Part shown: positions 527-40,236 of the stretch, in pieces
Layout: each line of letters opens with the position of its first letter
Numbering within the stretch: position 1 is the first letter of the stretch
Source: Bacteroidales bacterium
GTDB taxonomy: Bacteria; Bacteroidota; Bacteroidia; Bacteroidales; UBA3824
DNA: 40,236 nucleotides
Direction: 5' to 3'
NCBI GenBank assembly: GCA_017417315.1
Contig: JAFPZK010000004.1
Location: 1-40,236, forward strand
Position numbers and translations under genes: made by a program
The notes under the pieces: model-generated
The model's database searches: none
What the model was told of the DNA's origin: nothing
The model's input: only the letters and a program-made list of their open reading frames with translations

Positions 527-1717
527 TTATTTCTTCGTAAAATATCCGGGGAGTTCTTTACCACCGTCGATTTGGGCGTATTGAGTGTCAATTTTTGATT
601 CGTCATATTTAGTTCCTTGTCCGCCGATAAGGTTTATGCAATCTTTAAACATTTCAAGACCGTCCGTTTTTTTGTTAATCTTCCAACCTTGACCAATATA
701 AATGGTTTTAAGGTTTTTGCTTCCGTTAAACATACAAGACATAAACGCTACTTTTCCCGTATTAAACCCGCTTAAATCAAGGCTTGTAATAAGAGGACAA
801 GCACTAAACATATAACTCATATCCGTTACTTTTTCTGTTTTAAATTTGCTGACATCAAGGCTCGTAATAAGAGAACAATTCAAAAACATATAACTCATAT
901 CCGTTACTTTTTCCGTATTGAATCCGCTGACATCAATGCTCGTAATTGAGGAACAATCCTTAAACATACCGGACATATTTGTAACGTTTTGAGTGTTGAA
1001 ACCGCTAACATTAACGCTTGTAAGTTTTTTACAATTACAGAACATATTAGACATATTTGTAACGTTTTGAGTATTAAACCCTTTTACATCAAGACTCGTT
1101 AGAAGTTGACAATCTCTGAACATATCACTCATATCCGTTACTTTTTCAGTATTGAACCGACTTACATCAAGGCTCGTCAGGTTTTTACAACCCAAAAACA
1201 TATTAGACATATTGGTAACTTTTTGAGTGTTGAATCCGCTGATATCAAGATTTGTAATGTGTTTACAATCTCTAAACATATTAGACATGTTTGTAACGTT
1301 TTGAGTATTTAATCCGCTGACATCAAGGCTCGTAAGTCTTTGACAATTAGAAAACATATCTTCCATATCCGTAACGTTTTCAGTATTAAGATATTCTTTC
1401 ATGCCAATGATGGATTTGAGTTCCGCGCAATCCTTAAACCAACTTTTACAACTTTTTGGACGATATTTCTTAAAGGACTCGTCAAAAACAACTGTATATA
1501 AGTCCCATTTTTGATACCATTCCTTAATATTTTTTACCTGACTAAATTCATAATCATAAGTTCTTTCCACATCATACGCACCTTGGGGTTTGTTGCTACC
1601 GTAGTAAAAAGTCAAAGTTCTGTCTTTGAAAACAGCGTATGCCTCTTCTTTAACTGATTGAGCCATTGTGTATAACGGCAAGAGAAGCATTAAAGCGAAT
1701 ACAGTTTTTAATTTCAT
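527..1717 (-). CDS. BspA-like secreted leucine-rich-repeat protein (DUF285 type)
   Basis: The protein has 396 residues from the ATG at 1717, chosen because it opens a clear signal peptide (MKLKTVFALMLLLPLYTMAQ); the frame upstream of it has no such feature. After about 100 unique residues comes one partial and then eight full 26-residue repeats of the form LTSLDVSGFNTQNVTNMSNMF-x5, the DUF285/BspA-like class found in surface proteins of Bacteroidota, Firmicutes and mycoplasmas. A short C-terminal segment ends in GYFTKK and has no recognisable type IX sorting domain. Repeats are 78 bases long and very similar in DNA, so the gene can expand or contract by recombination. These proteins are generally thought to mediate surface binding; the ligand here is unknown. 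A decayed fragment of the same gene lies at 27238-27516. Confidence 0.88.
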   Translation of the reverse strand: MKLKTVFALMLLLPLYTMAQSVKEEAYAVFKDRTLTFYYGSNKPQGAYDVERTYDYEFSQVKNIKEWYQKWDLYTVVFDESFKKYRPKSCKSWFKDCAELKSIIGMKEYLNTENVTDMEDMFSNCQRLTSLDVSGLNTQNVTNMSNMFRDCKHITNLDISGFNTQKVTNMSNMFLGCKNLTSLDVSRFNTEKVTDMSDMFRDCQLLTSLDVKGFNTQNVTNMSNMFCNCKKLTSVNVSGFNTQNVTNMSGMFKDCSSITSIDVSGFNTEKVTDMSYMFLNCSLITSLDVSKFKTEKVTDMSYMFSACPLITSLDLSGFNTGKVAFMSCMFNGSKNLKTIYIGQGWKINKKTDGLEMFKDCINLIGGQGTKYDESKIDTQYAQIDGGKELPGYFTKK

Positions 1718-2004
1718 GATGTATTGTATTTTTAAATTATTTTCTACAAAAATAAGATTTTTTTTTGTAATTTTTGTAGTTTTGTGTAGAAAATATTTTT
1801 TTTTGACAGATTGATTATTAATTGTAAATTTGCAAAGAATAATAATCAAAATTGGTACAACGGTCAAAGACGTATACGAACACAACAAAAGTGGCGTGAT
1901 AGAGGTGTGATGCATCGGTTGGAGCAAGCGCCAAGCAAAGCACGATGTGAAGTTTGAGGTGGTGGAGTAATTGCAGAAAGAAATTTCTCTAAACTGATTA
2001 AACA

Positions 2005-2036
2005 CAGCCGTCCGAACAATTCAATCCGGACGGCTG
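2005..2036. terminator. Rho-independent-type hairpin downstream of hydrolase pseudogene
   Basis: Perfect 10-base arms CAGCCGTCCG (2005-2014) and CGGACGGCTG (2027-2036) enclose a 12-base loop, with weakly T-rich sequence on both sides. It sits just after the stop of the minus-strand hydrolase remnant. Between it and the BspA-like start (1718-2004) I see only AT-rich leader sequence, including TATTTTTG at 1754-1747 on the minus strand, and no gene. Confidence 0.7.
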
Positions 2037-21531: not shown

Positions 21532-22679
21532 TGGAGGTAAAAAAAGGGATAAATATATTCGGAAAACTATCGTCGCTGCTAAAAAAAATAAACCTTACGG
21601 TAACTATTCTTTTGGTGTTATCGACATTGTTTTCATATAGTTCGATGGTTTTGAGTCCGGCGAAATACACTCTCCTACCCGCTTTGGCGGGAATGGCTTT
21701 TCCGTATATTTTAATTGTTGACGTTTTGTATGCCTTGTTGCTGATTTTAACCAAAAAATGGACTTCGCTTTTGATGATTGCCGTTATTGCAGGAGGGTAC
21801 AAAATGATTGATTTCACAGTTCAGTTAAACCCTCTGAATTATATCGACGATTTTTCGAAAGAAGACTCCTCGTTTAGTTTTATGTCGTTCAACGTCAGGT
21901 TGTTAGACCGTTATAATTGGATTGACAGCAAAGGCGGCACAAAAAATAAAATTTTTGAATTCTTGAAATACGAAAGCCCTGACATCGTATGTTTTCAGGA
22001 GTTTTTCAACAACTCAAAAGACAGCGTTACAAATGCCGATTTAATCAGCGGAATACTTCAAACGCCATACGTTATAAGGGATTATGATTCTTCGGACACA
22101 GACCATAAAACGGATAAAGGGTATATTGTATTTTCAAAATACAAAATTTTCAACAAGCGTCATATTTTTGATTTCACGGGAAATCTTATCGGAATGAGTG
22201 TTGATGCGGACGTTTACGGCAAAAAAGCCAGAATTTTTAATGTCCACTTAAAATCAATAAAACTCGGTTATGACGACTACGATTTTATTGACAAAATAGA
22301 AAATACTAACAATAAAGAAAAAATTTCGGGTTGGGGGAATATTTTTTCCAAAATGTCTTCGGCATATAAAATCCGTGTAAAACAGGCAGTTATGATTGAT
22401 TCGCTGATTTCATTATCGCCGTATCCGGTGATTTTGTGCGGAGATTTCAACGAGCCGCCGGCCTCGTATACGTATTGGCATATACGACACGGTTTTAAGG
22501 ACGCTTTTTGCGAATCGGGAACGGGTTTCGGCGGAACGATGAGGGTAAAATTCTTGACTTTTAGAATAGATTATATTCTTCATTCTCAAAAACTTAGCAG
22601 CAAGAGATTCCGTACTCATACCGAAAACTTGTCAGACCATTATCCTATAAGTTGTAAATTCAAATTTTTTGAAGAATGA
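21531..22679 (+). CDS. Membrane-anchored EEP-family phosphohydrolase
   Basis: 382 residues. Three hydrophobic segments lie in the first about 105 residues (VTILLVLSTLFSYSSMVL, PALAGMAFPYILIVDVLYALLLIL, SLLMIAVIAGGY), followed by a C-terminal EEP catalytic domain. Its motifs are FSFMSFNVRLL, DIVCFQEFF (metal Glu), FNVHLKS (His), VILCGDFNEPPASY (Asp/Asn) and LSDHYPISC (Asp-His). The catalytic domain probably faces the periplasm. It is fused by a 1-base overlap to trmB and a 4-base overlap to the glycosyltransferase, so the three are co-translated. The arrangement with three N-terminal helices is common in Bacteroidota; the substrate is unknown. Confidence 0.88.
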   Translation: MEVKKGINIFGKLSSLLKKINLTVTILLVLSTLFSYSSMVLSPAKYTLLPALAGMAFPYILIVDVLYALLLILTKKWTSLLMIAVIAGGYKMIDFTVQLNPLNYIDDFSKEDSSFSFMSFNVRLLDRYNWIDSKGGTKNKIFEFLKYESPDIVCFQEFFNNSKDSVTNADLISGILQTPYVIRDYDSSDTDHKTDKGYIVFSKYKIFNKRHIFDFTGNLIGMSVDADVYGKKARIFNVHLKSIKLGYDDYDFIDKIENTNNKEKISGWGNIFSKMSSAYKIRVKQAVMIDSLISLSPYPVILCGDFNEPPASYTYWHIRHGFKDAFCESGTGFGGTMRVKFLTFRIDYILHSQKLSSKRFRTHTENLSDHYPISCKFKFFEE

Positions 22680-23749
22680 TTTTTTTTCTATCGGTCTCGA
22701 CGGTTTATTTTCTTCTCGTGTTGGTTTGCTGTCTTTGTTTTTACCGTTATAAAACTTCTGAAAATAAGGATTATGACGTAAAAATTTACGTTCTTGTTTC
22801 CGCCAAAAACGAGGCTGAAAACATTGAAAAATTTTTACATTGTATTGAAAATCAGAGTTTTAAAAATTTTACTTTGGTTTTGATTGACGATAATTCTTCG
22901 GACTCAACTTTTGAAAAAGCCTCGGCATACGGCTTAAAAAATCTCGTTTTGAAAAAAAATCCGTTTTCCGGTAAAAAATCCGCTTTGAAATACGGCTTAG
23001 AATTTTGCTCGGGAGAATACGTTTTTTTGACCGATGCGGATTGTTTTCCTGAAAAAGACTGGCTTAAAACGTTGGTTTCAACCATGAAAACTCACAATGC
23101 GGACATGGTGCTTGCGCCGGTGATTATAACGGCCTCTGATTCTGAAAAACGTTTTCAACGCCTTTGGCAGGCGGAAGGTTTTTCGTTTATAACCGTAACT
23201 GCGGGGACGTGTATTTCAGGGCTTCCGGTGATGAGTAACGGCGGCAATATCGGTTATAAAACGGAGTTTTTTAAGAATAACATTTTGGGGCTTAATGCGG
23301 CTTACTCTTCGGGCGACGATATGTTTATGTTGGAGACGGCTCAAAAAATGAAGAAAAAAATCGTTTACGCAAAACTTCCGTCAGCGGTTGTTGAAACACA
23401 AGGCGTTGAAACGATGAAAGCACTGTTTAATCAGCGGTCGAGATGGGTGAGTAAAACGGGCGGTTACAGAGATTTTTTTACGTTGTTTTTTGCTGCAATA
23501 GTCTTTTTTGCGAACATCGACATCATTGCTTTAACGGTGCTTTCGGCGTTGAAAATCGTGAATTTTCAGACGTTTTTGATAGCGTTTTTTTCAAAGTTTT
23601 TGGTTGACTTTTTATCCGTTGAAATTCCTTCAAGATATTACAACCGCCCGCAAAATTTTTCGGATATTTTTATTTTGGCTTTGGTATATCCTTATTATGT
23701 TTTCGGGGCGGTGTTTATGTATTTTGTAAAGGGTTTTAAGTGGAAATAG
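22676..23749 (+). CDS. Family 2 glycosyltransferase, membrane-bound
   Basis: 357 residues. An N-terminal helix (residues 4-22) is followed by a GT-A domain with YVLVSAKNEAENI, LVLIDDNSSDST (nucleotide binding), FLTDADCFP (the metal-binding DxD equivalent), SGDDMFML (acceptor/catalytic acid) and QRSRWVSK (the QxxRW motif of processive transferases). Three or more C-terminal membrane helices follow. This pattern resembles hyaluronan/cellulose-synthase-like and N-glycosyltransferase membrane enzymes that add sugars to lipid or polysaccharide acceptors. The start overlaps the preceding stop (ATGA). It is the last gene of the gldH run. Confidence 0.9.
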   Translation: MIFFLSVSTVYFLLVLVCCLCFYRYKTSENKDYDVKIYVLVSAKNEAENIEKFLHCIENQSFKNFTLVLIDDNSSDSTFEKASAYGLKNLVLKKNPFSGKKSALKYGLEFCSGEYVFLTDADCFPEKDWLKTLVSTMKTHNADMVLAPVIITASDSEKRFQRLWQAEGFSFITVTAGTCISGLPVMSNGGNIGYKTEFFKNNILGLNAAYSSGDDMFMLETAQKMKKKIVYAKLPSAVVETQGVETMKALFNQRSRWVSKTGGYRDFFTLFFAAIVFFANIDIIALTVLSALKIVNFQTFLIAFFSKFLVDFLSVEIPSRYYNRPQNFSDIFILALVYPYYVFGAVFMYFVKGFKWK

Positions 23750-23757
23750 TTTTTTTT

Positions 23758-23834
23758 ACCCGAAAGTGTCATTTTTGTCCCCAAAAAATTACCCGAAAGT
23801 GTCATTTTTTTTCGAAAAATTTTATATATTTTTG
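23758..23834 (+). promoter_or_regulatory. Repeated ACCCGAAAGTGTCATTTTT motif and promoter before the FISUMP locus
   Basis: The 19-base motif occurs at 23758-23776 and again at 23791-23809. The second copy lies inside a 54-base block (23781-23834) that ends in the promoter element TATTTTTG (23827-23834). That block is repeated without any change at 26870-26923. Position and repetition suggest an operator plus promoter for the downstream lipoprotein gene. Confidence 0.65.
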
Positions 23835-23926
23835 TGGAGGAAATTTCTCTCGGGAGTTTTCTTAGAAAAATACTTTTGCGCAAAAAGTTATTTTATTTTT
23901 ATTTTTAACAATTATTTTTTTTACAC

Positions 23927-24931
23927 ATGAAAAAAATTTACAAATTTTCAGCGGTTGCAACTATGGCAGTTGCAATGCTGTGCGGCACGGCGTGCCAAGA
24001 GGAAGAAGAAGTAAAAGTTTCAAATGAAACCATTACAAATGTCGTTGTTAACAAAGATTCCGTTTTGACTGTTGACGGGAAAAGAATGGAGTGGAAGTTT
24101 TCATTACCAGAACGGAAAAAGTCAATTTCAAAAGGAATCCTTTATGGAAGAGACTACTATAACGAATTAGCAGATACATGTAAAAAGTTCTACGGAAAGA
24201 ATTATGAGTTATTCAAAACCATAACATATACTCATAAAAGGAAAAATGGAACTCAACAAAAACATAACATACAACTCATGCGTGTTGATAGAAAAACAGA
24301 ACCGGGTAAATACTTCTATGTAATGGTTTATAATTTAGACGTAGAATTAGATACAGCATGTTGGGCATACGGAGAAACTAAAAATATATTATACACATAT
24401 AATGCCACTAAATACGGCAGATTATACACGTGGGATGCAGCAAATGCATTAGCAAAAAAAATCTCAATTGTATTGAACAATAGACGCGTGCATGCAAGAT
24501 TAATGTCAAAACAGGATATTGAGGATATTATGGAATGTGGTAACGCCGGCTATTACGGATACACAATAGATGACAATATAGATGCTCCTGAACATGAAGA
24601 TATTGGTTTGCAGTTCAATTATTATGATGTCTTCATAGGCGGTTTAGATGGACCTACTTATGATGAGGAACCTGATTATTCACGCGGTGCAAGAAACCTC
24701 GGTGGATTTAGAAATACAGTTGCAAATGAGTATTATTTTAATAATTGGTACGAAAACTTAAATCAAGTAGGAATGTATTGGTTAAAAGATGCTTATTTCC
24801 CTGAATATTCTGATTGCCATGGAATATTTGTTGTTGATTATAATAATGATAATAATTATGCAGTATCTTGCCAGGTAGATCATTTGAATCAATATGGTTT
24901 TTCTGTACGTTATGTTTTTGAACCCAAATAA
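23927..24931 (+). CDS. FISUMP-like lipoprotein
   Basis: 334 residues. The signal peptide has a lipobox (GTAC, lipidated Cys23) followed by an acidic EEEEE-like run. The C-terminal half resembles the Fibrobacter succinogenes major paralogous domain (TIGR02145): YNATKYGRLYTWDAANALA, a long variable middle, NLGGFRN, QVGMYWLKD, and the ending YGFSVRYVF in place of the usual YSVRCV. The usual GWHLPS motif is replaced by VHARLMSKQDIEDIM, so this is a divergent member. It is likely an outer-membrane surface lipoprotein of unknown ligand. A2-base gap separates it from the next gene, and a decayed copy lies at 26955-27160. Confidence 0.72.
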   Translation: MKKIYKFSAVATMAVAMLCGTACQEEEEVKVSNETITNVVVNKDSVLTVDGKRMEWKFSLPERKKSISKGILYGRDYYNELADTCKKFYGKNYELFKTITYTHKRKNGTQQKHNIQLMRVDRKTEPGKYFYVMVYNLDVELDTACWAYGETKNILYTYNATKYGRLYTWDAANALAKKISIVLNNRRVHARLMSKQDIEDIMECGNAGYYGYTIDDNIDAPEHEDIGLQFNYYDVFIGGLDGPTYDEEPDYSRGARNLGGFRNTVANEYYFNNWYENLNQVGMYWLKDAYFPEYSDCHGIFVVDYNNDNNYAVSCQVDHLNQYGFSVRYVFEPK

Positions 24932-24932
24932 T

Positions 24933-26072
24933 ATGAAACACTACAATATTTTTTTTATTAAGACCGCATTTCTTTTTGCGGTCTTAATTTGTTGCAGCCA
25001 CTCCAATGCTCAGGAATATAATAATTGGTTATTAGAAGACGGAAATATTTTGAATTTTAATACAAATCCGCCAAGCATTGATAAAATTGATTTTGATAAT
25101 CGCAAAGGTAATTTTTCCTTATCGGATAATAACGGAAAATTACTACTTTACGGAGGAAAACTCACCCCCAAAAATAATAATAGTAATTTATCGAATTATG
25201 TGATAAAGAATAATAAAAATCAAACACTTGTATCCTTTCCTTCCGTAAATATCAGAAATGCAATAAGTTGCAAATCTGTTACTGGCAATGCGTCATATTA
25301 TGCAGCAATAATTTACAACGAATCAAAGACATTAAGATATGCTATGAGATTATACAGATTCGATAATAACGGAGTATTACGGGATTCGTTAATCTCAAAA
25401 GATGTAAATCATTCTCATATTGCTTGGTTTATGCCACAAGATAACGGTGATGTTATTTTTTTTTGTTACATACACACAAACAAAACTATCGAATCATATA
25501 AATTATCAAAAGATATAATAAAAAAAACACATACATACAATATTAAATTACCTGTACGAAACGAACTTTCGGAAATATCACACATAATCCCGTTAAAAAA
25601 CGGTAACAAAATTATTGTATTATCACAAATATATTGTTTTATTATGAATTACGATATAAACACAGAAAATATTTCTTTATCGAAAGAAATTAACGGTTTT
25701 GATAATGGCGATGCAATTGCCTTATCAGAAAATGATAAATATTTAATTGCAACAAAAGGTGATAAAAATAAATTAATACGTTACAAATTATCGGATGACT
25801 TTGATTTTGATAACGGAGAAACAATTTATGAATATAAAGACTATTATGTCAATGATATTCAATTAGGAGAAGACGGGAAATTATATGTACTACAAAACAA
25901 TAATACTATCAAATTCATTGACGGCATAGAAACAGATAATATTACTGTCGGAAAAATTGATGGAGTAATTGAATCAAATTCAAAAATACATTTTCCAAAA
26001 ATTCCGAGAATTATTGAAACCAAATCCGCCCCTTGTCCCGAAACAGAAAAACCGAAAATTATTTGCGAATGA
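24933..26072 (+). CDS. Secreted propeller-like protein of unknown function
   Basis: 379 residues from ATG 24933, which opens a signal peptide (MKHYNIFFIKTAFLFAVLIC, cleavage near SNAQ). The mature start YNNWLLEDGNILNFNTNPPS followed by SLSDNNGKLLLYGG resembles the N-terminal blades of Bacteroidota surface proteins that begin NxWYFGxxAGxDFN...SDxNGNLLFYT. Repeating blade-like units follow (GDAIALSENDKYLIATKG, VNDIQLGEDGKLYVLQNN). There is no C-terminal sorting domain; it ends in a short Pro/Cys/Glu-rich tail. The AT-rich codon use is more extreme than that of its neighbours. Probably co-expressed with the upstream lipoprotein, subject to the hairpin inside its signal-peptide region. Confidence 0.75.
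   Translation: MKHYNIFFIKTAFLFAVLICCSHSNAQEYNNWLLEDGNILNFNTNPPSIDKIDFDNRKGNFSLSDNNGKLLLYGGKLTPKNNNSNLSNYVIKNNKNQTLVSFPSVNIRNAISCKSVTGNASYYAAIIYNESKTLRYAMRLYRFDNNGVLRDSLISKDVNHSHIAWFMPQDNGDVIFFCYIHTNKTIESYKLSKDIIKKTHTYNIKLPVRNELSEISHIIPLKNGNKIIVLSQIYCFIMNYDINTENISLSKEINGFDNGDAIALSENDKYLIATKGDKNKLIRYKLSDDFDFDNGETIYEYKDYYVNDIQLGEDGKLYVLQNNNTIKFIDGIETDNITVGKIDGVIESNSKIHFPKIPRIIETKSAPCPETEKPKIICE
24957..24988 (+). terminator. Terminator-like hairpin inside the signal-peptide codons
   Basis: Perfect 12-base arms ATTAAGACCGCA (24957-24968) and TGCGGTCTTAAT (24977-24988) enclose an eight-base T-rich loop and are followed by TTGTT. It begins 26 bases after the lipoprotein stop and within codons 9-19 of the next gene. 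The same hairpin is retained in the decayed copy at 27183-27214. It could terminate or attenuate between the two genes. Confidence 0.7.
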
Positions 26073-26125
26073 AAAAAATTCTTTATACTTTCGCGCTATG
26101 AAAATAAACCTCAGCGAACTAAAAA

Positions 26126-26869
26126 ATGGACAAAGAAATACAAGATTTTTTCACTGCACCTAATTTGCTGCTTACAACAAACCCGCAAGAAAAAATAAAT
26201 GTTAAAGCGGATTTGAAACTCTCAGAGGCTGTCAGCCGGATTTTGGGCTGCGGCATTTATGTGGCAGACTACACAAAAAACGAAGTGGTCTATATCTCCG
26301 AAAACATCGCAAAAATGTGCGGACTTCCGTACAAAGAAATAACAGCGGAAAACTGCGGTCTCTATTTAAAACATGTCCCCGACAGCGATTATAAAATGCT
26401 TTTGGAAATCAACGGGGCTGTTTTTTCGCTGTTTAAAACAATGACGGACGAAGAAATTTTAAAATGCTGTGTTTCATATAATTTTCACATAAACCATCTT
26501 CTTCTTCACCAAAGTTTTACGCCAATAGCAGTAGACAACGGATTTGTAAGGCTCGGACTTTTTGTCCTGACATTATCGTCAGAAAACAAACTCGGTCATA
26601 TAGTTTTGCAACAGAAAAACTCCAAAACGTTTTACGAATACTCTTTGGAAAAACACGTCTGGATACCACAGGAAAAGATAACGCTTTCCGAAACCGAAAA
26701 ACGGATACTCTGTCTTTCGGCGCAAGGACGTACAGAAGACGAGATTGCCGGACTTCTTTGCAAATCTTCGGACAGCATCAAATATCATAAAAAAGTACTT
26801 TTCAAAAAACTCAATGTCAGCAACATCACAGAAGCATTAATTTATGCAATAAACAACAGATTTTTTTAA
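26126..26869 (+). CDS. PAS-LuxR family transcriptional regulator
   Basis: 247 residues. Residues about 28-140 form a PAS-like sensor (ILGCGIYVADYTKNEVVYIS, followed by MCGLPYKEITAENCG). Residues about 186-247 form a LuxR/GerE helix-turn-helix (LSETEKRILCLSAQGRTEDE, then KSSDSIKYHKKVLFKKLNVS). There is no receiver domain and no autoinducer-binding domain. A possible promoter (TACTTTCG) is about 30 bases upstream. Its stop codon is directly followed by the 54-base repeat that also precedes the FISUMP gene, so it is physically part of that unit and may control it. Confidence 0.85.
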   Translation: MDKEIQDFFTAPNLLLTTNPQEKINVKADLKLSEAVSRILGCGIYVADYTKNEVVYISENIAKMCGLPYKEITAENCGLYLKHVPDSDYKMLLEINGAVFSLFKTMTDEEILKCCVSYNFHINHLLLHQSFTPIAVDNGFVRLGLFVLTLSSENKLGHIVLQQKNSKTFYEYSLEKHVWIPQEKITLSETEKRILCLSAQGRTEDEIAGLLCKSSDSIKYHKKVLFKKLNVSNITEALIYAINNRFF

Positions 26870-26923
26870 CCAAAAAATTACCCGAAAGTGTCATTTTTTT
26901 TCGAAAAATTTTATATATTTTTG
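26870..26923 (+). repeat. 54-base direct repeat, second copy (promoter block)
   Basis: Identical over 54 bases to 23781-23834, including the ACCCGAAAGTGTCATTTTT motif (26880-26898) and the TATTTTTG promoter element. It starts on the base after the LuxR stop codon and now drives only a decayed gene copy. Confidence 0.9.
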
Positions 26924-26954
26924 AGGCGGAAAGAAAACGCATTAATTTAGAACA

Positions 26955-27160
26955 ATGGAAAGAAAACAGATATTATACACATATAATGCCACTCAATACG
27001 GCAGATTATACACGTGGGATGCTGCAAATGCATTAGCAAAAAAAATCTCAATTGTATTGAACAATAGACGTGTACATGCAAGATTGATGTCAAATCTTGT
27101 CAGGTAGATCATTTGAATCAATATGGTTTCTCTGTACGTTATGTGTTTGAACCCAAATAA
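26955..27160 (+). pseudogene. Decayed copy of the FISUMP-like lipoprotein gene
   Basis: From 26970 the DNA matches 24386-24510 closely (YNATQYGRLYTWDAANALA). It then jumps, at MS(K)-NLV near 27095, to the last about 65 bases of the gene (QVDHLNQYGFSVRYVFEPK), which is out of frame. An ATG at 26955 gives a 50-codon frame that stops at 27107. About 350 bases of the middle and all of the signal-peptide region are missing. Confidence 0.85.
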
Positions 27161-27161
27161 T

Positions 27162-27224
27162 ATGAAACATTACAAATCCCTTATTAAGACCGCATTTCTT
27201 TTTGCGGTCTTAATTTGTGTATAA
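27162..27224 (+). pseudogene. Decayed start of the propeller-like gene, with its hairpin
   Basis: ATGAAACATTACAAA matches the start of the gene at 24933. The signal-peptide codons IKTAFLFAVLIC and the hairpin arms (27183-27194, 27203-27214) are kept. A stop then follows (TAA at 27222-27224) and the sequence passes directly into the BspA-like fragment. Confidence 0.8.
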
Positions 27225-27237
27225 GTTCTAACGCCCA

Positions 27238-27516
27238 AGAGATTGTCAACTCCTATCGAGTCTTGATGTAAAAGGGTTTAATACGGGAAAAGTAGCGTTT
27301 ATGTCTTGTATGTTTAACGGAAGCAAAAACCTTAAAACCATTTATATTGGTCAAGGATGGAAGATTAGCAAAAAAACGGACGGTCTTGAAATGTTTAAAG
27401 ATTGCATAAACCTTACCGGCGGACAAGGAACTAAATATGACGAATCAAAAATTGACACTCAATACGCCCGAATCGACGGCGGTAAGGGACTCCCCGGATA
27501 TTTTACGAAGAAATAA
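27238..27516 (+). pseudogene. Fragment of the BspA-like protein gene
   Basis: In frame from 27238: RDCQLLSSLDVKGFNT (repeats 3-4 of the gene at 527-1717), then directly GKVAFMSCMFNGSKN (last repeat) and the complete C-terminus to GYFTKK. The 71 C-terminal residues differ from the intact gene at four positions. There is no start codon or signal peptide; repeats 5-7 and the N-terminus are missing. Orientation is opposite to the intact gene. Confidence 0.88.
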
Positions 27517-27527
27517 TTTTTTTAAAC

Positions 27528-27574
27528 AACAAACCACGAAAACTGTTAATTTTTAGTGCTTTTCGTGGTTTGTT
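27528..27574. terminator. Duplicated bidirectional terminator
   Basis: Perfect 15-base arms at 27528-27542 and 27560-27574 with A-rich and T-rich flanks. It is the counterpart of the hairpin at 470-516 and may now terminate the hydrolase operon on the minus strand. Confidence 0.8.
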
Positions 27575-27579
27575 ATTTT

Positions 27580-27650
27580 TTACGCCGCACTCCTGAACTC
27601 TGTCGGTTTTTCACAACTTCGTGGTTGATTTCCTCGCGGGTGATGAACGA
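27580..27650 (-). pseudogene. Scrambled fragment of an AraC-family gene
   Basis: On the minus strand, 27650-27609 repeats bases 107-148 of the window (FITREEINHE codons). It then jumps to the last nine codons of the same gene (PTEFRSAA*), in another frame. About 290 bases of the DNA-binding domain are deleted. Together with the BspA fragment it forms an inverted partial copy of the left edge of the window. Confidence 0.85.
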
Positions 27651-27703
27651 TAGTCTGTTCGGGAGCAAAAAATGTTACGGTCATCTCGTCAAAAATAGTT
27701 GGT

Positions 27704-28801
27704 TTATTTCAAATTTTCATTGAAAAACTCAGCCATCTTGTCGTAGGGTATGGCGTTTATCTTGTTGTCGTAGAGGTCGGTGTGGACGGCTCCGGGGATT
27801 ATCAGAAGTTCCTTGTTGCCGATTTTCGAGCTCTTACCGTCGGGATTCGTGCCTGTCATTTTTTCGAAGGCGTACTCGCTGAAATAGCGGCTGTGGGCTT
27901 TTTCGCCGTGAATCAACAGCACGGGACTTTCGATTTCGTTAGCCCAACAGAGAAGGTTTTGATTGAGAAACGACTGACAGCCGATGACGTTCCAACCGTC
28001 ATTGGAATTGCCGCTGCGCTTGTGGTAGCCGCGAGGAGTTTTGTAATAGTCGTAATAATCCTTCACAAACCACGGCGCGTCGTCGGGCAAGGGGTCGATA
28101 ACTCCGCCTGCACGTTTGTAACTGCCTGAACGATAATCTTCTGTACGTTGTGCGGCGATGGCACAGCGTTTTTCCATACGTTGTGCGGGAGTGTTTTCGC
28201 TGCCGAAATAACCCTCAACTGTCACCTTGCTCATATCGTACATTGTTGAGGCTACTGTCGCCTTGATTCTCGGGTCGATGGCGGCTGCGTTGACAGCCAT
28301 TCCGCCCCAACCGCAAACGCCTATGATTCCGATTTTTTCGGGGTCAACGTTGTCCTGAACCGAAAGAAAATCCACTGCCGCAAGAAAATCCTCGGTGTTG
28401 ATGTCGGGCGACGCCATTCTGCGAGGTTCGCCGCCGCTCTCACCCGTAAACGAGGGGTCGAAGGCGATGGTCAGAAATCCGCGTTCTGCCATTGTCTGCG
28501 CATAAAGTCCTGAGGTCTGTTCCTTTACCGCGCCGAAAGGTCCGCAGACAGCGATTGCGGGCAGAGACGCTAAATTTTGCGTCTTTACGATTGGCGTGTA
28601 CATATCGGCTACGAGTGTGATGCCGTAACGGTTGTGGAAGGTTACTTTCTTGTGGCTGACTTTGTCGGACTTAGGGAACACCTTGTCCCATTCCTGAGTG
28701 AGTGTAAGTGTCTGTTCCATTGTATTTTCTGTTTTAATTTGATTGCTGCACGAAGACAACAGTCCGCAAGCAATAACTGCTGTTAGTATTAGATTTTTCA
28801 T
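27704..28801 (-). CDS. Alpha/beta hydrolase lipoprotein with cysteine nucleophile elbow
   Basis: 365 residues. The lipobox (LLSSC, Cys18) predicts an outer-membrane or periplasmic lipoprotein. The hydrolase core matches the YcjY/dienelactone-hydrolase-like group: PAIAVCGPFGAVKEQTSGLY, FDPSFTGESGGEPR, the elbow GIIGVCGWGGMAVNAAA, then SPVLLIHGEKAHSRYFS and IPGAVHTDLYD with the catalytic His. The expected nucleophile position is Cys (G-V-C-G), not Ser, as in dienelactone hydrolases. An internal ATG (MEQTLTLTQEWDKVFPKSDK) matches the start of cytoplasmic relatives, so the lipoprotein leader may be a lineage-specific addition. It lies 13 bases after the cyclophilin-like gene and is probably in one operon with it. 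Confidence 0.9.
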   Translation of the reverse strand: MKNLILTAVIACGLLSSCSNQIKTENTMEQTLTLTQEWDKVFPKSDKVSHKKVTFHNRYGITLVADMYTPIVKTQNLASLPAIAVCGPFGAVKEQTSGLYAQTMAERGFLTIAFDPSFTGESGGEPRRMASPDINTEDFLAAVDFLSVQDNVDPEKIGIIGVCGWGGMAVNAAAIDPRIKATVASTMYDMSKVTVEGYFGSENTPAQRMEKRCAIAAQRTEDYRSGSYKRAGGVIDPLPDDAPWFVKDYYDYYKTPRGYHKRSGNSNDGWNVIGCQSFLNQNLLCWANEIESPVLLIHGEKAHSRYFSEYAFEKMTGTNPDGKSSKIGNKELLIIPGAVHTDLYDNKINAIPYDKMAEFFNENLK

Positions 28802-38602: not shown

Positions 38603-40236
38603 ATGCTCAGACGGCTTCCATACGGCGAGACGGATTACGTGACCATCCGCAAAGAAAACTCCTATTATGTCGATAAGACGGCGTTCATTCCCTACTTTGA
38701 AGATGCCGCCAAATACATTATGTTCCTGCGTCCGAGACGGTTTGGCAAAAGCCTGTTTCTCAATACGTTGTCGGCATATTACGACATTTTGAGAAAGGAA
38801 CAGTTTGAACAGAACTTTTCGGGGCTCTACGTCTATGACCATCCCACGCCGAGGCAGGGACAGTATATGATTTTGAAGTTCAATTTTTCCACAGTCAACA
38901 GCAAGATTGAAAATGTAGAAACATCGTTCAATTCAAAAACTTGCAGGACAATAAGTCAGTTTGTAGATAAATACAAAGAATTTTTGCCCGAAAATACAGA
39001 CGAGTTGATGTCGGAAGCAAACGGCAAATGCGATGAAATGTTAGATGTACTTATCACGTTGACTGAACATTCCCGGTACAAAACCTACATTATGATTGAC
39101 GAGTACGACAACTTTGCCAACACATTGTTTTCCACCGATGAGGAAGCATATAAGAAACTGACGCACGGCGACGGCTTTTTCCGTCTGTTTTTCAACGTCT
39201 TGAAACGGATGACCACCGACAACGAGGCACCTGTCGAAAGGATTTTCATAACGGGAGTTTCGCCTTTGACGTTGAGCGACGTTACAAGCGGGTTCAACAT
39301 TGCAAAAAACTTGTCAATAGAGGCAATTCCAAACGATGTGATGGGCTTTTCTGAAAGCGATGTCCGTGCGATGTTGGAATATTACCGCAAGGAAACAGGC
39401 GTTTTCAAACATTCTGATGATGAACTGATTGCGACAATGAGGACGCACTACGACAATTATTGTTTTTCATCAGAAATGATTGAAGATGAAAGGGTTTTCA
39501 ATTCGGATATGGTGTTGTATTTCGTTGACAAATACATATCTTCAAAAGGCAAAATCCCCGAAAAACTCATCGACCCGAATGTCTCCACCGACTATTTCAA
39601 GATGGAGAAAATGGTGAAAATAGAACAAAATTTCGGCGAAAAGTCGCGGATTATCCTCGATATCGTTAACACCGGAAGAACATATTTTGAACTCAATCCC
39701 GAGTTTGCCATTGCGGAACTTTCTAAGGCAAGCAATCTGAAAAGTTTGCTTTTCTATATGGGGTTGTTGAGTTTTGGTGTTGATAGCGATGGAATACCGT
39801 GTTTTGTAGTCCCAAACGACACTGTAAGGCAACAATATTGCCGATATTTGGAGGTGTGCTATTCAAGAGGATTGGGTTGGCGCACCGATATTCCAAAGTT
39901 GGATTCTCTTTGGGAGCAACTCGTTTTCAAAGGCGACTGCAAGCCGTTCATCTCATACATTGCATCGGTAATCGACGAAAACTCCGCCGTCAGGGACTTT
40001 GACGACAAGGGCGAATCGTTTGTTAAGGGATTCTTCTTGGCGCATTTCTGCAAGAGTTCGAGTTTCATCACCTACACCGAACAGGAGGCTGACCACGGTT
40101 TTGCCGATATGTACCTCGAACCGCTCGGCTACAAACGCCACGCCTATATGATTGAACTCAAATATTGCAAGAAAAACGCCCCCGATTCAGAGGTTGAAAC
40201 CAAGAAAGCCGACGCCAAAGTCCAACTTCAAAAATA
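38603..40236 (+). CDS. AAA-ATPase-like protein with PD-(D/E)XK domain, 3' end outside window
   Basis: 544 codons are open from ATG 38603 (MLRRLPYGETDYVTIRKENS) to the window end without a stop. The N-terminal AAA-ATPase-like domain has the Walker A variant RPRRFGKS (residues 43-50) after YYVDKTAFIP, Walker B YIMIDEYDNF, and FITGVSPLTLSDVTSGFNI. A helical middle follows. Near the end, GFADMYLEP and AYMIELKYCKK give the Asp...Glu-x-Lys core of a PD-(D/E)XK nuclease-fold domain (PF08011 type). This family is highly expanded in Bacteroidales, and its function is unknown; mobile-element-like spread has been suggested. A promoter element TAACTTTG lies at 38570-38577. Only the last part of the nuclease domain is missing. 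Confidence 0.88.
   Translation, partial: MLRRLPYGETDYVTIRKENSYYVDKTAFIPYFEDAAKYIMFLRPRRFGKSLFLNTLSAYYDILRKEQFEQNFSGLYVYDHPTPRQGQYMILKFNFSTVNSKIENVETSFNSKTCRTISQFVDKYKEFLPENTDELMSEANGKCDEMLDVLITLTEHSRYKTYIMIDEYDNFANTLFSTDEEAYKKLTHGDGFFRLFFNVLKRMTTDNEAPVERIFITGVSPLTLSDVTSGFNIAKNLSIEAIPNDVMGFSESDVRAMLEYYRKETGVFKHSDDELIATMRTHYDNYCFSSEMIEDERVFNSDMVLYFVDKYISSKGKIPEKLIDPNVSTDYFKMEKMVKIEQNFGEKSRIILDIVNTGRTYFELNPEFAIAELSKASNLKSLLFYMGLLSFGVDSDGIPCFVVPNDTVRQQYCRYLEVCYSRGLGWRTDIPKLDSLWEQLVFKGDCKPFISYIASVIDENSAVRDFDDKGESFVKGFFLAHFCKSSSFITYTEQEADHGFADMYLEPLGYKRHAYMIELKYCKKNAPDSEVETKKADAKVQLQK

Follow-up and report, generated by a model that had tools for sequence, protein, structure and literature searches.

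What is the meaning of a 54-base sequence that stands, letter for letter the same, at both ends of a unit of three genes? The question is raised by a stretch of 40,236 nucleotides (nt) from a Bacteroidales bacterium (UBA3824; assembly GCA_017417315.1, contig JAFPZK010000004.1), here called the window, which is a complete contig of a 3.94-Mb genome. Between the two copies lie genes for a lipoprotein, a propeller-like protein and a PAS-LuxR transcriptional regulator. A preliminary description of this DNA took the unit for a former tandem array that can expand or excise by recombination between the repeats, and suggested that the regulator could act on the promoter contained in them. From comparison of sequences we consider it quite probable that the 54-base block is an operator-plus-promoter cassette, the predicted target through which the PAS-LuxR protein switches on the lipoprotein-propeller operon behind it. 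The conservation of the block would then have an ordinary cause, its function as operator plus promoter, and the module in the window is likely one of a family of regulator-operator-surface-operon modules in the genus.

The two copies (23781-23834 and 26870-26923) are identical over all 54 bases and form the core of a longer repeat (family D3, 23771-23843 and 26860-26932) with 93% identity. The genes between them come in the order lipoprotein (23927-24931), propeller (24933-26072) and LuxR (26126-26869), and the LuxR stop codon (26867-26869) is followed immediately, at 26870, by the second copy. Behind it lie decayed copies of the first two genes: 26958-27094 matches lipoprotein DNA at 24374-24510 (93%), 27094-27175 matches 24865-24946 (95%), and 27181-27218 matches 24955-24992 (100% over 38 bases). 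In all these points the preliminary description was right, and the tandem array that it proposed is also real; it comprises two units and is present in a second species (G004) as well. An artefact of assembly is an unlikely source of the repeat, since the right end of the window (40096-40236) shares exactly 141 identical bases with the end of contig C20 of the same genome (L120 6003-6143), which suggests that the assembly word was longer than the repeat.

Each copy of the block extends from 8 bases 5' of a 16-bp palindrome (TTACCCGAAAGTGTCA) to the final base of a predicted -7 box (TATTTTTG), and in both copies 22 nt separate the palindrome from the box. The -7 consensus of Bacteroidota promoters is TAnnTTTG. 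Another palindrome lies ahead of the first copy, and all three in the window read TTACCCGAAAGTGTCA. The exact form TTACCCNAAAGGGTAA, with one loop base left free, is found four times in the source genome, twice on contig C48 and once each on C8 and C25, in every case ahead of a lipoprotein-propeller operon. On C48 the stop codon of a LuxR paralogue (56% identical) is followed after 8 nt by two perfect palindromes (TTACCCGAAAGGGTAA), a promoter and the relic of a lipoprotein gene, past which come propeller, lipoprotein, lipoprotein and propeller genes; no LuxR of the window's family is found near the palindromes on C8 and C25. An 80-base query starting at 23781 retrieved from the 3.94-Mb genome both window copies, the site behind the C48 LuxR paralogue (83%) and a 26-base piece ahead of the lipoprotein-propeller operon on C25. 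Block or palindrome stands upstream of lipoprotein-propeller operons at four places in the genome (window, C8, C25 and C48) and directly 3' of a LuxR gene at two (window and C48). A block scattered without these genes, which the preliminary description had named as counter-evidence, is not what the genome contains.

Within the genus the association between site and regulator can be counted. A homologue search gave 36 LuxR matches, 30 of them with loci; of the other genomes, 13 of 17 in the genus and 1 of 41 elsewhere in the order have a homologue, and the named relatives in the genus are Bacteroidales metagenome-assembled genomes (MAGs), mostly from the guts of sheep, goat, yak and deer. After removal of six near-duplicate and two incomplete rows (one removed row, L055, carries the site) the set comprised 26 different LuxR genes for which downstream sequence was available; G047 contributed one of them and the genus the other 25. 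A site of the operator class lies within 100 nt past the stop codon in 14 of these 26, compared to 10 of 248 other genes (p=1e-10), and among the ten non-LuxR hits two are the very blocks discussed here and another two are sites of this kind at the LuxR locus of G010. Relatives of the LuxR being found consistently away from such sites, a possibility raised earlier, is thus not the picture obtained. The palindrome sequence differs among the paralogues (TTACCCGAAAGGGTAA, GTACCCGAAAGGGTAC, TACCCCAAATGGGGTA, TCCCCCAAAAGTGGTA, CTACCCCTAAGGGTAT), but their geometry is fairly constant. As to the distance from the promoter, 10 of 21 sites behind LuxR genes lie 22-23 nt ahead of a TAnnTTTG box, 7 lie at 43-59 nt, and the remaining 4 have no box within 60 nt; other distances do not occur. 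The seven would fit as distal partners. Repeat-like sites, including one of L059 (distal, 54 nt), were removed from this count. It should be noted that the spacing was noticed after the motif had been defined and that the -7 box is outside that definition. On the side of the predicted target, an operator is present within 200 nt upstream of the lipoprotein gene in 10 of 30 entries versus 2 of 139 control windows, and a propeller gene comes next in 25 of 30; one gene was entered twice, which corrects these numbers to 9/29 and 25/29, and one repeat-like match was excluded. Five of the ten upstream sites lie at 22-23 nt from the box and two at 55-56 nt, and three are without a perfect box. Two other arrangements were seen in the LuxR family: a tandem of two LuxR genes, neither with an operator behind (genome G001, L082 8739-10233), and one clade without operators (L096 7167-7907, L074, L076), of which L096 adjoins an apparent ribosomal protein operon.

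Outside the genus, LuxR homologues with 28-39% identity are found in Muribaculaceae, Segatella, Leyella and others. At cluster promoters there, palindromes of a wider form (TTAC[AC]C-N4-G[GT]GTAA) occur as twins 38-39 bp apart, located upstream of the LuxR gene, of an outer-membrane beta-barrel gene or of an acyltransferase gene. At least one twin is present in 17 of 31 outside-genus LuxR loci, several of which come from close relatives so that the 17 are not 17 independent events, and the mean of 20 resamplings was 0.0. Among 25 genus loci fetched via other genes the only twins are the window and G004 blocks, and among 30 order-wide palindrome loci there are two, L193 beside a LuxR gene and L190 without one. 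The spacing was counted for 469 loosely matched sites outside the genus, on both strands and with relatives kept in: 39 lie at 22 nt, 2 at 23 nt, and 0-11 at each other distance. Two lake MAGs (L164, L165) carry a perfect CTACCCGAAAGGGTAG about 45 nt upstream of the start of a LuxR that is ~30% identical to that of the window; at 88% identity to one another, the two proteins are taken as a single case. In Muribaculaceae and related MAGs a cluster of acyltransferase, PAS-LuxR and ThiF genes is conserved (L148, L150, L151, L153, L154, L157), with twin palindromes ahead of the acyltransferase and LuxR genes and one matched site ahead of ThiF; overall the ThiF-family neighbour gene has mostly one matched site, sometimes two. 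Outside the genus a ThiF gene is a frequent neighbour of this LuxR family, and some loci have the acyltransferase gene as well. In L131 and L133 (Segatella copri, Leyella stercorea) the outer-membrane gene with a twin-site promoter is found past the LuxR and ThiF-like genes and is read from the other strand.

The model that we propose postulates that a LuxR dimer binds both half-sites (T[TG]AC[CA]C) of each palindrome; binding at the -35 region of the target promoters is predicted from comparison. The proximal palindrome has its centre 30 nt ahead of the -7 box, at about -43 if transcription starts where expected, and from here the dimer would recruit the polymerase. As this is a usual place for an activator, an activating role is suggested. 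The distal palindrome, 33 bp upstream, would add cooperativity, and the PAS domain would be the sensor of a signal. Where a LuxR gene runs up to such a promoter, its product would drive the unit that comes next. In the window two genes stand between block 1 and the LuxR gene, and block 2 follows the latter immediately, which would create a positive loop unless the LuxR gene is transcribed from a promoter of its own, as it may be from the near box at 26086-26093; the LuxR gene on C48 is not behind a block. The conserved gene ends would permit gene exchange between species, and the identity over 54 bases would result from function together with homogenisation of the copies within the genome. That the regulator acts on the shared block, as first suggested, is probable in view of sites which accompany the LuxR family and keep a fixed distance to the -7 box.

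Several observations weigh against the model. Each of the three window sites has 2 mismatches to the perfect palindrome. These same loci were the source of the motif, which was defined with them in view; 12 of the 26 LuxR genes lack a site within 100 nt, one of the 14 hits (L050) resembles an unrelated repeat, and the LuxR loci L056, L065 and L066 match at the distal distance only. A recognisable operator is missing from 20 of 29 lipoprotein genes, among them the C21 gene of the source genome, and a tight co-occurrence of LuxR and lipoprotein across the genus had to be given up, the coupling being weak (18 genomes: both in 10, LuxR only in 4, lipoprotein only in 1, neither in 3). Activation rather than repression we infer from position alone. 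Behind the LuxR genes outside the genus there is no enrichment of sites (2/23 versus 8/123 for other genes), and one of these two is an open reading frame (ORF) piece of the in-genus locus L162; an operator behind the LuxR was rejected as a Bacteroidales-wide rule. Upstream of these LuxR genes the first test was not significant (4/21 versus 14/116). A wider half-site, picked after inspecting those same sequences, gave a marginal result (8/20 versus 22/116, p=0.045), and with one mismatch allowed 9/20 versus 29/116 (p=0.10). Many control hits of the upstream test are LuxR neighbours sharing the same sites, and the case outside the genus relies on the resampling and spacing results, in both of which close relatives were retained. 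The twin in L190 (G046:C8, contig start) has its palindromes 40 bp apart and no LuxR of the family in view, close to where its contig ends, and in L164 the distance between box and palindrome is 10 nt rather than 22. Finally, the exact 14-mer TACCCGAAAGGGTA has 57 occurrences among 393 genomes from the order, 6 of them in the genus and 51 outside, compared to 19 for the reversed control, and 2 of 30 examined loci adjoin a LuxR of the family (L193 and L196; L180 has weak matches only), so that an occurrence of the word does not by itself prove a LuxR target.

The best of the alternative explanations, which we nevertheless regard as improbable, is that the block is a recombination site and the unit a small mobile or phase-variable element that excises, expands or inverts via the copies, the promoter content being incidental. 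That the unit begins and ends with direct copies of the same sequence could be understood in this way, and so could the variation seen at the insertion site, which is flanked by a glycosyltransferase gene and a phosphatidylserine-decarboxylase-like gene. Between these flanks G007 has ~60 nt and no unit; G014 has a block and the final codons of the propeller gene, nothing more; and G004 has block, lipoprotein, propeller, LuxR, double block and propeller, inverted relative to the window, the junction next to the glycosyltransferase gene falling on the same base. Inversion, however, requires inverted copies, and those found here are direct; the G014 relic joins the promoter to the last propeller codons, which recombination from block to block would not yield. 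The G004 inversion, the G014 relic and the G007 absence are thus unlike the products of such recombination, and the expansion or excision by the repeats postulated in the preliminary description was not borne out. No recombinase is recognised in the ORFs between or next to the copies (six window proteins scanned): the former encode lipoprotein, propeller and LuxR, the latter the glycosyltransferase and a hydrolase-like protein, labelled as such by eye. Furthermore, the functional core of operator, spacer and box is present in unduplicated loci, e.g., on C8 and C25. The gap between the glycosyltransferase and decarboxylase genes (window 23750; L077, L112, L115) is a spot of turnover. In the window's genome the decarboxylase-like gene is on contig C20, whose end shares the 141 bases with the end of the window, and the two contigs may be joined through a longer insertion.

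A shade less credible is the explanation that another common regulator or an architectural protein binds the sites and that the LuxR is a mere neighbour. It could account for the 28 of 30 examined exact 14-mer loci in the order that have no strong family LuxR match within ~1.5 kb, and for the 12 of 26 LuxR genes without a site, but not readily for site and LuxR occurring together in separate lineages and in arrangements that differ: downstream of the gene in this genus, upstream of it in the lake Bacteroidales, between divergent genes in L193, and in the promoters of the LuxR gene and its neighbours in Muribaculaceae and relatives. That the palindromes function at the RNA level, as hairpins or as LuxR terminators, is very improbable, for although they are inverted repeats followed by T-rich DNA and often lie just past LuxR stop codons, the same sites stand ahead of operons without a preceding LuxR (C8, C25) and between divergent genes (L193), they are frequently 22-23 nt from the next promoter box, for which a terminator has no reason, and an Rfam scan of 22500-28000 gave a single match at chance level.

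Part of the history of unit and regulator can be traced by comparing the window's genome (G000) with G004. The LuxR gene and the last ~80 bases of the propeller gene are ~98% identical, and 16 of 744 LuxR bases differ. At four-fold sites of LuxR 8 of 91 differ (0.088), compared to 0.34-0.47 in six other genes from the two loci, lipoprotein and propeller included. By this low divergence relative to the neighbours, LuxR was recently exchanged between the two species without them, and the upstream breakpoint lies in the conserved tail of the propeller genes. The spacer variant is common to both blocks of a genome (CGAAAAATTTTATATA in the window, CGATTTTTTTTATATA in G004), and the bases past the box in block 2 (AGGC) agree between the species; by these two patterns the two-unit array looks older than the species split, and the copies appear to have been homogenised within each genome.

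The window LuxR has a C-terminal GerE/LuxR helix-turn-helix (PF00196, E 2.9e-10), found in 15 of 15 members of the family. Its N-terminal PAS domain is recognised by structure (model pLDDT 86, with VqmA and EL222 among the best matches) and weakly by sequence, with a Pfam PAS match at E 0.029 for the window LuxR and at 0.01 for 3 of the 15 members; the best structural matches are 3clo from B. thetaiotaomicron and then VqmA. Among Pfam families at E 0.01 none of the 15 members has an autoinducer-binding domain of the N-acyl-homoserine lactone (AHL) type, and judged by domain content the LuxR is not an AHL receptor. The name FISUMP given to the lipoprotein in the preliminary description stands at the level of the family, where 9 of 10 members match TIGR02145 (TIGR02145 / PF09603) at E <= 0.1 with a best value of 2.7e-9; the window protein misses E 0.1 and is too diverged to be assigned. 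A protein search gave 50 relatives of the lipoprotein; the few with an organism name are Bacteroidales MAGs. The model of the propeller protein (pTM 0.81) is nearly all beta past the signal peptide, with matches including 1l0q, a YVTN propeller/PKD surface-layer protein, and the Bacteroides lipoprotein BT2095; some paralogues carry PKD domains, and a beta-propeller with repeated four-strand blades is supported by the model. Two other roles were considered and rejected. For an anti-phage defence system PADLOC gave no match with the lipoprotein and the propeller and one weak match with the LuxR (CARF3, E 0.00057, residues 153-230), and for a phage origin no homologue was confirmed among viral contigs. 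The positions of the features are presented in Table 1.

Table 1. Positions of the operators, promoter boxes, genes and relics in and around the three-gene unit.
Feature	Position	Strand	Remarks
Glycosyltransferase gene	22676..23749	+	flank; anchor for insertion site
Distal operator A, TTACCCGAAAGTGTCA	23756..23771	+	from sequence; 2 mismatches to TTACCCNAAAGGGTAA
Block 1 (repeat copy 1): proximal operator, 22-nt spacer, -7 box	23781..23834	+	
Proximal operator B, TTACCCGAAAGTGTCA	23789..23804	+	33 bp from operator A
Predicted Bacteroidota -7 box TATTTTTG (TAnnTTTG)	23827..23834	+	22 nt past operator B
Possible second -7 box TACTTTTG	23871..23878	+	within leader
Lipoprotein, 334 aa, divergent member of FISUMP-like family	23927..24931	+	predicted surface protein
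Beta-propeller protein, 379 aa	24933..26072	+	predicted secreted
Tract ~98% identical to G004 (end of propeller gene and LuxR)	25991..26869	+	beside genes 69-87% identical
Near -7 box TACTTTCG ahead of LuxR	26086..26093	+	from sequence
PAS-LuxR transcriptional regulator, 247 aa	26126..26869	+	
Block 2 (repeat copy 2), directly 3' of LuxR stop	26870..26923	+	single operator retained
Block 2 operator	26878..26893	+	22 nt ahead of -7 box 26916-26923
Lipoprotein-gene relic	26958..27175	+	two pieces (93%, 95%)
Relic of propeller-gene signal-peptide region	27181..27218	+	identical to 24955-24992
Relic of PARCEL/DUF285 gene 3' end	27259..27581	+	95% to 784-463, minus strand

The words of TACTTTTG are also found upstream of the operator-linked operons on C8 and C25 and upstream of an ffh-like gene on C17. 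An RNA leader (ACTTTTTGCGCAAAAAG after the promoter) was dropped as a candidate, since a part of it, which also stands upstream of this ffh-like gene, can be read as another -7 box. The signal-peptide codons of the propeller gene form a perfect hairpin of 12 bp (ATTAAGACCGCA...TGCGGTCTTAAT), identical in the gene (24955-24992) and its relic (27181-27218) and present also in G004. The tail past the relics is foreign to the unit and comes from a PARCEL/DUF285 gene (527-2005, minus strand) for a surface protein with eight TIGR02167 stretches; the 3' end of this gene is repeated at 27259-27581 with 95% identity, ~25 kb from the parent gene and in opposite orientation. For trmB, cysK, ffh, psd, cdsA and 'hydrolase' the names given are our own reading of the sequences.

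Among known regulators VqmA of Vibrio cholerae and phage VP882 shares with the window LuxR a PAS sensor and a GerE-type DNA-binding domain, although the TM-score over the whole chain is ~0.3 and the domain arrangement differs. According to one report it binds a palindrome GG-N6-CC at the promoter it activates (PMC8284805). VqmA senses 3,5-dimethylpyrazin-2-ol (DPO) and controls the small RNA VqmR, whereas the window LuxR has the half-site T[TG]AC[CA]C and as predicted target the adjacent surface-protein operon. PimM of Streptomyces and its relatives are PAS-LuxR proteins described as acting on a 16-bp palindrome CTVGGGAWWTCCCBAG in the -35 region (PMC9774167). This site and that of the window are both 16-bp palindromes with G/C triplets and an A/T centre; the arms are reversed (CCC-N4-GGG in the window), the PimM targets are antibiotic genes, and the phylum is different. 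The best fold match of the window LuxR is the LuxR-domain regulator of B. thetaiotaomicron in PDB 3clo (TM-score ~0.4-0.5, plus a profile match), for which the records consulted give neither an operator nor a function. By analogy the window LuxR would likely work as VqmA or PimM does, as a one-component PAS-LuxR on short palindromes near the promoter. As a variant it would be marked by an operator right behind the regulator gene, by predicted surface targets, by a regulator that is exchanged separately, and by many paralogous regulator-operator pairs with diverged operators amplified in one genus. A literature search, with most subscription journals outside the searched set, found among the titles listed none on this regulator-operator system and nothing under 'FISUMP', though the full name of the family does occur in two papers.

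A wider hypothesis, possible but rather unlikely, is that we are looking at an undescribed cell-to-cell signalling circuit of Bacteroidales, in which one twin-palindrome code governs the PAS-LuxR receptor together with an N-acyl (autoinducer-synthase-like) enzyme and a ThiF activating enzyme. In rumen species the pair of receptor and operator would have been duplicated many times over, so that separate surface-protein operons came under this signal; the window would be one of these copies. It leans on weak profile matches of the acyltransferase to FeeM (E 0.002) and autoinducer synthase (E 0.005), both below the Pfam cut-offs and from one protein scanned.

What the locus offers is a concrete DNA code: its palindromes have T[TG]AC[CA]C half-sites and often come in pairs, the near one 22-23 nt ahead of the -7 box. 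The code comes with a regulator family, with predicted surface targets and with homologues in the cultivated gut bacteria Segatella copri and Leyella stercorea, and with a regulator gene which was exchanged between species apart from the adjoining surface genes.

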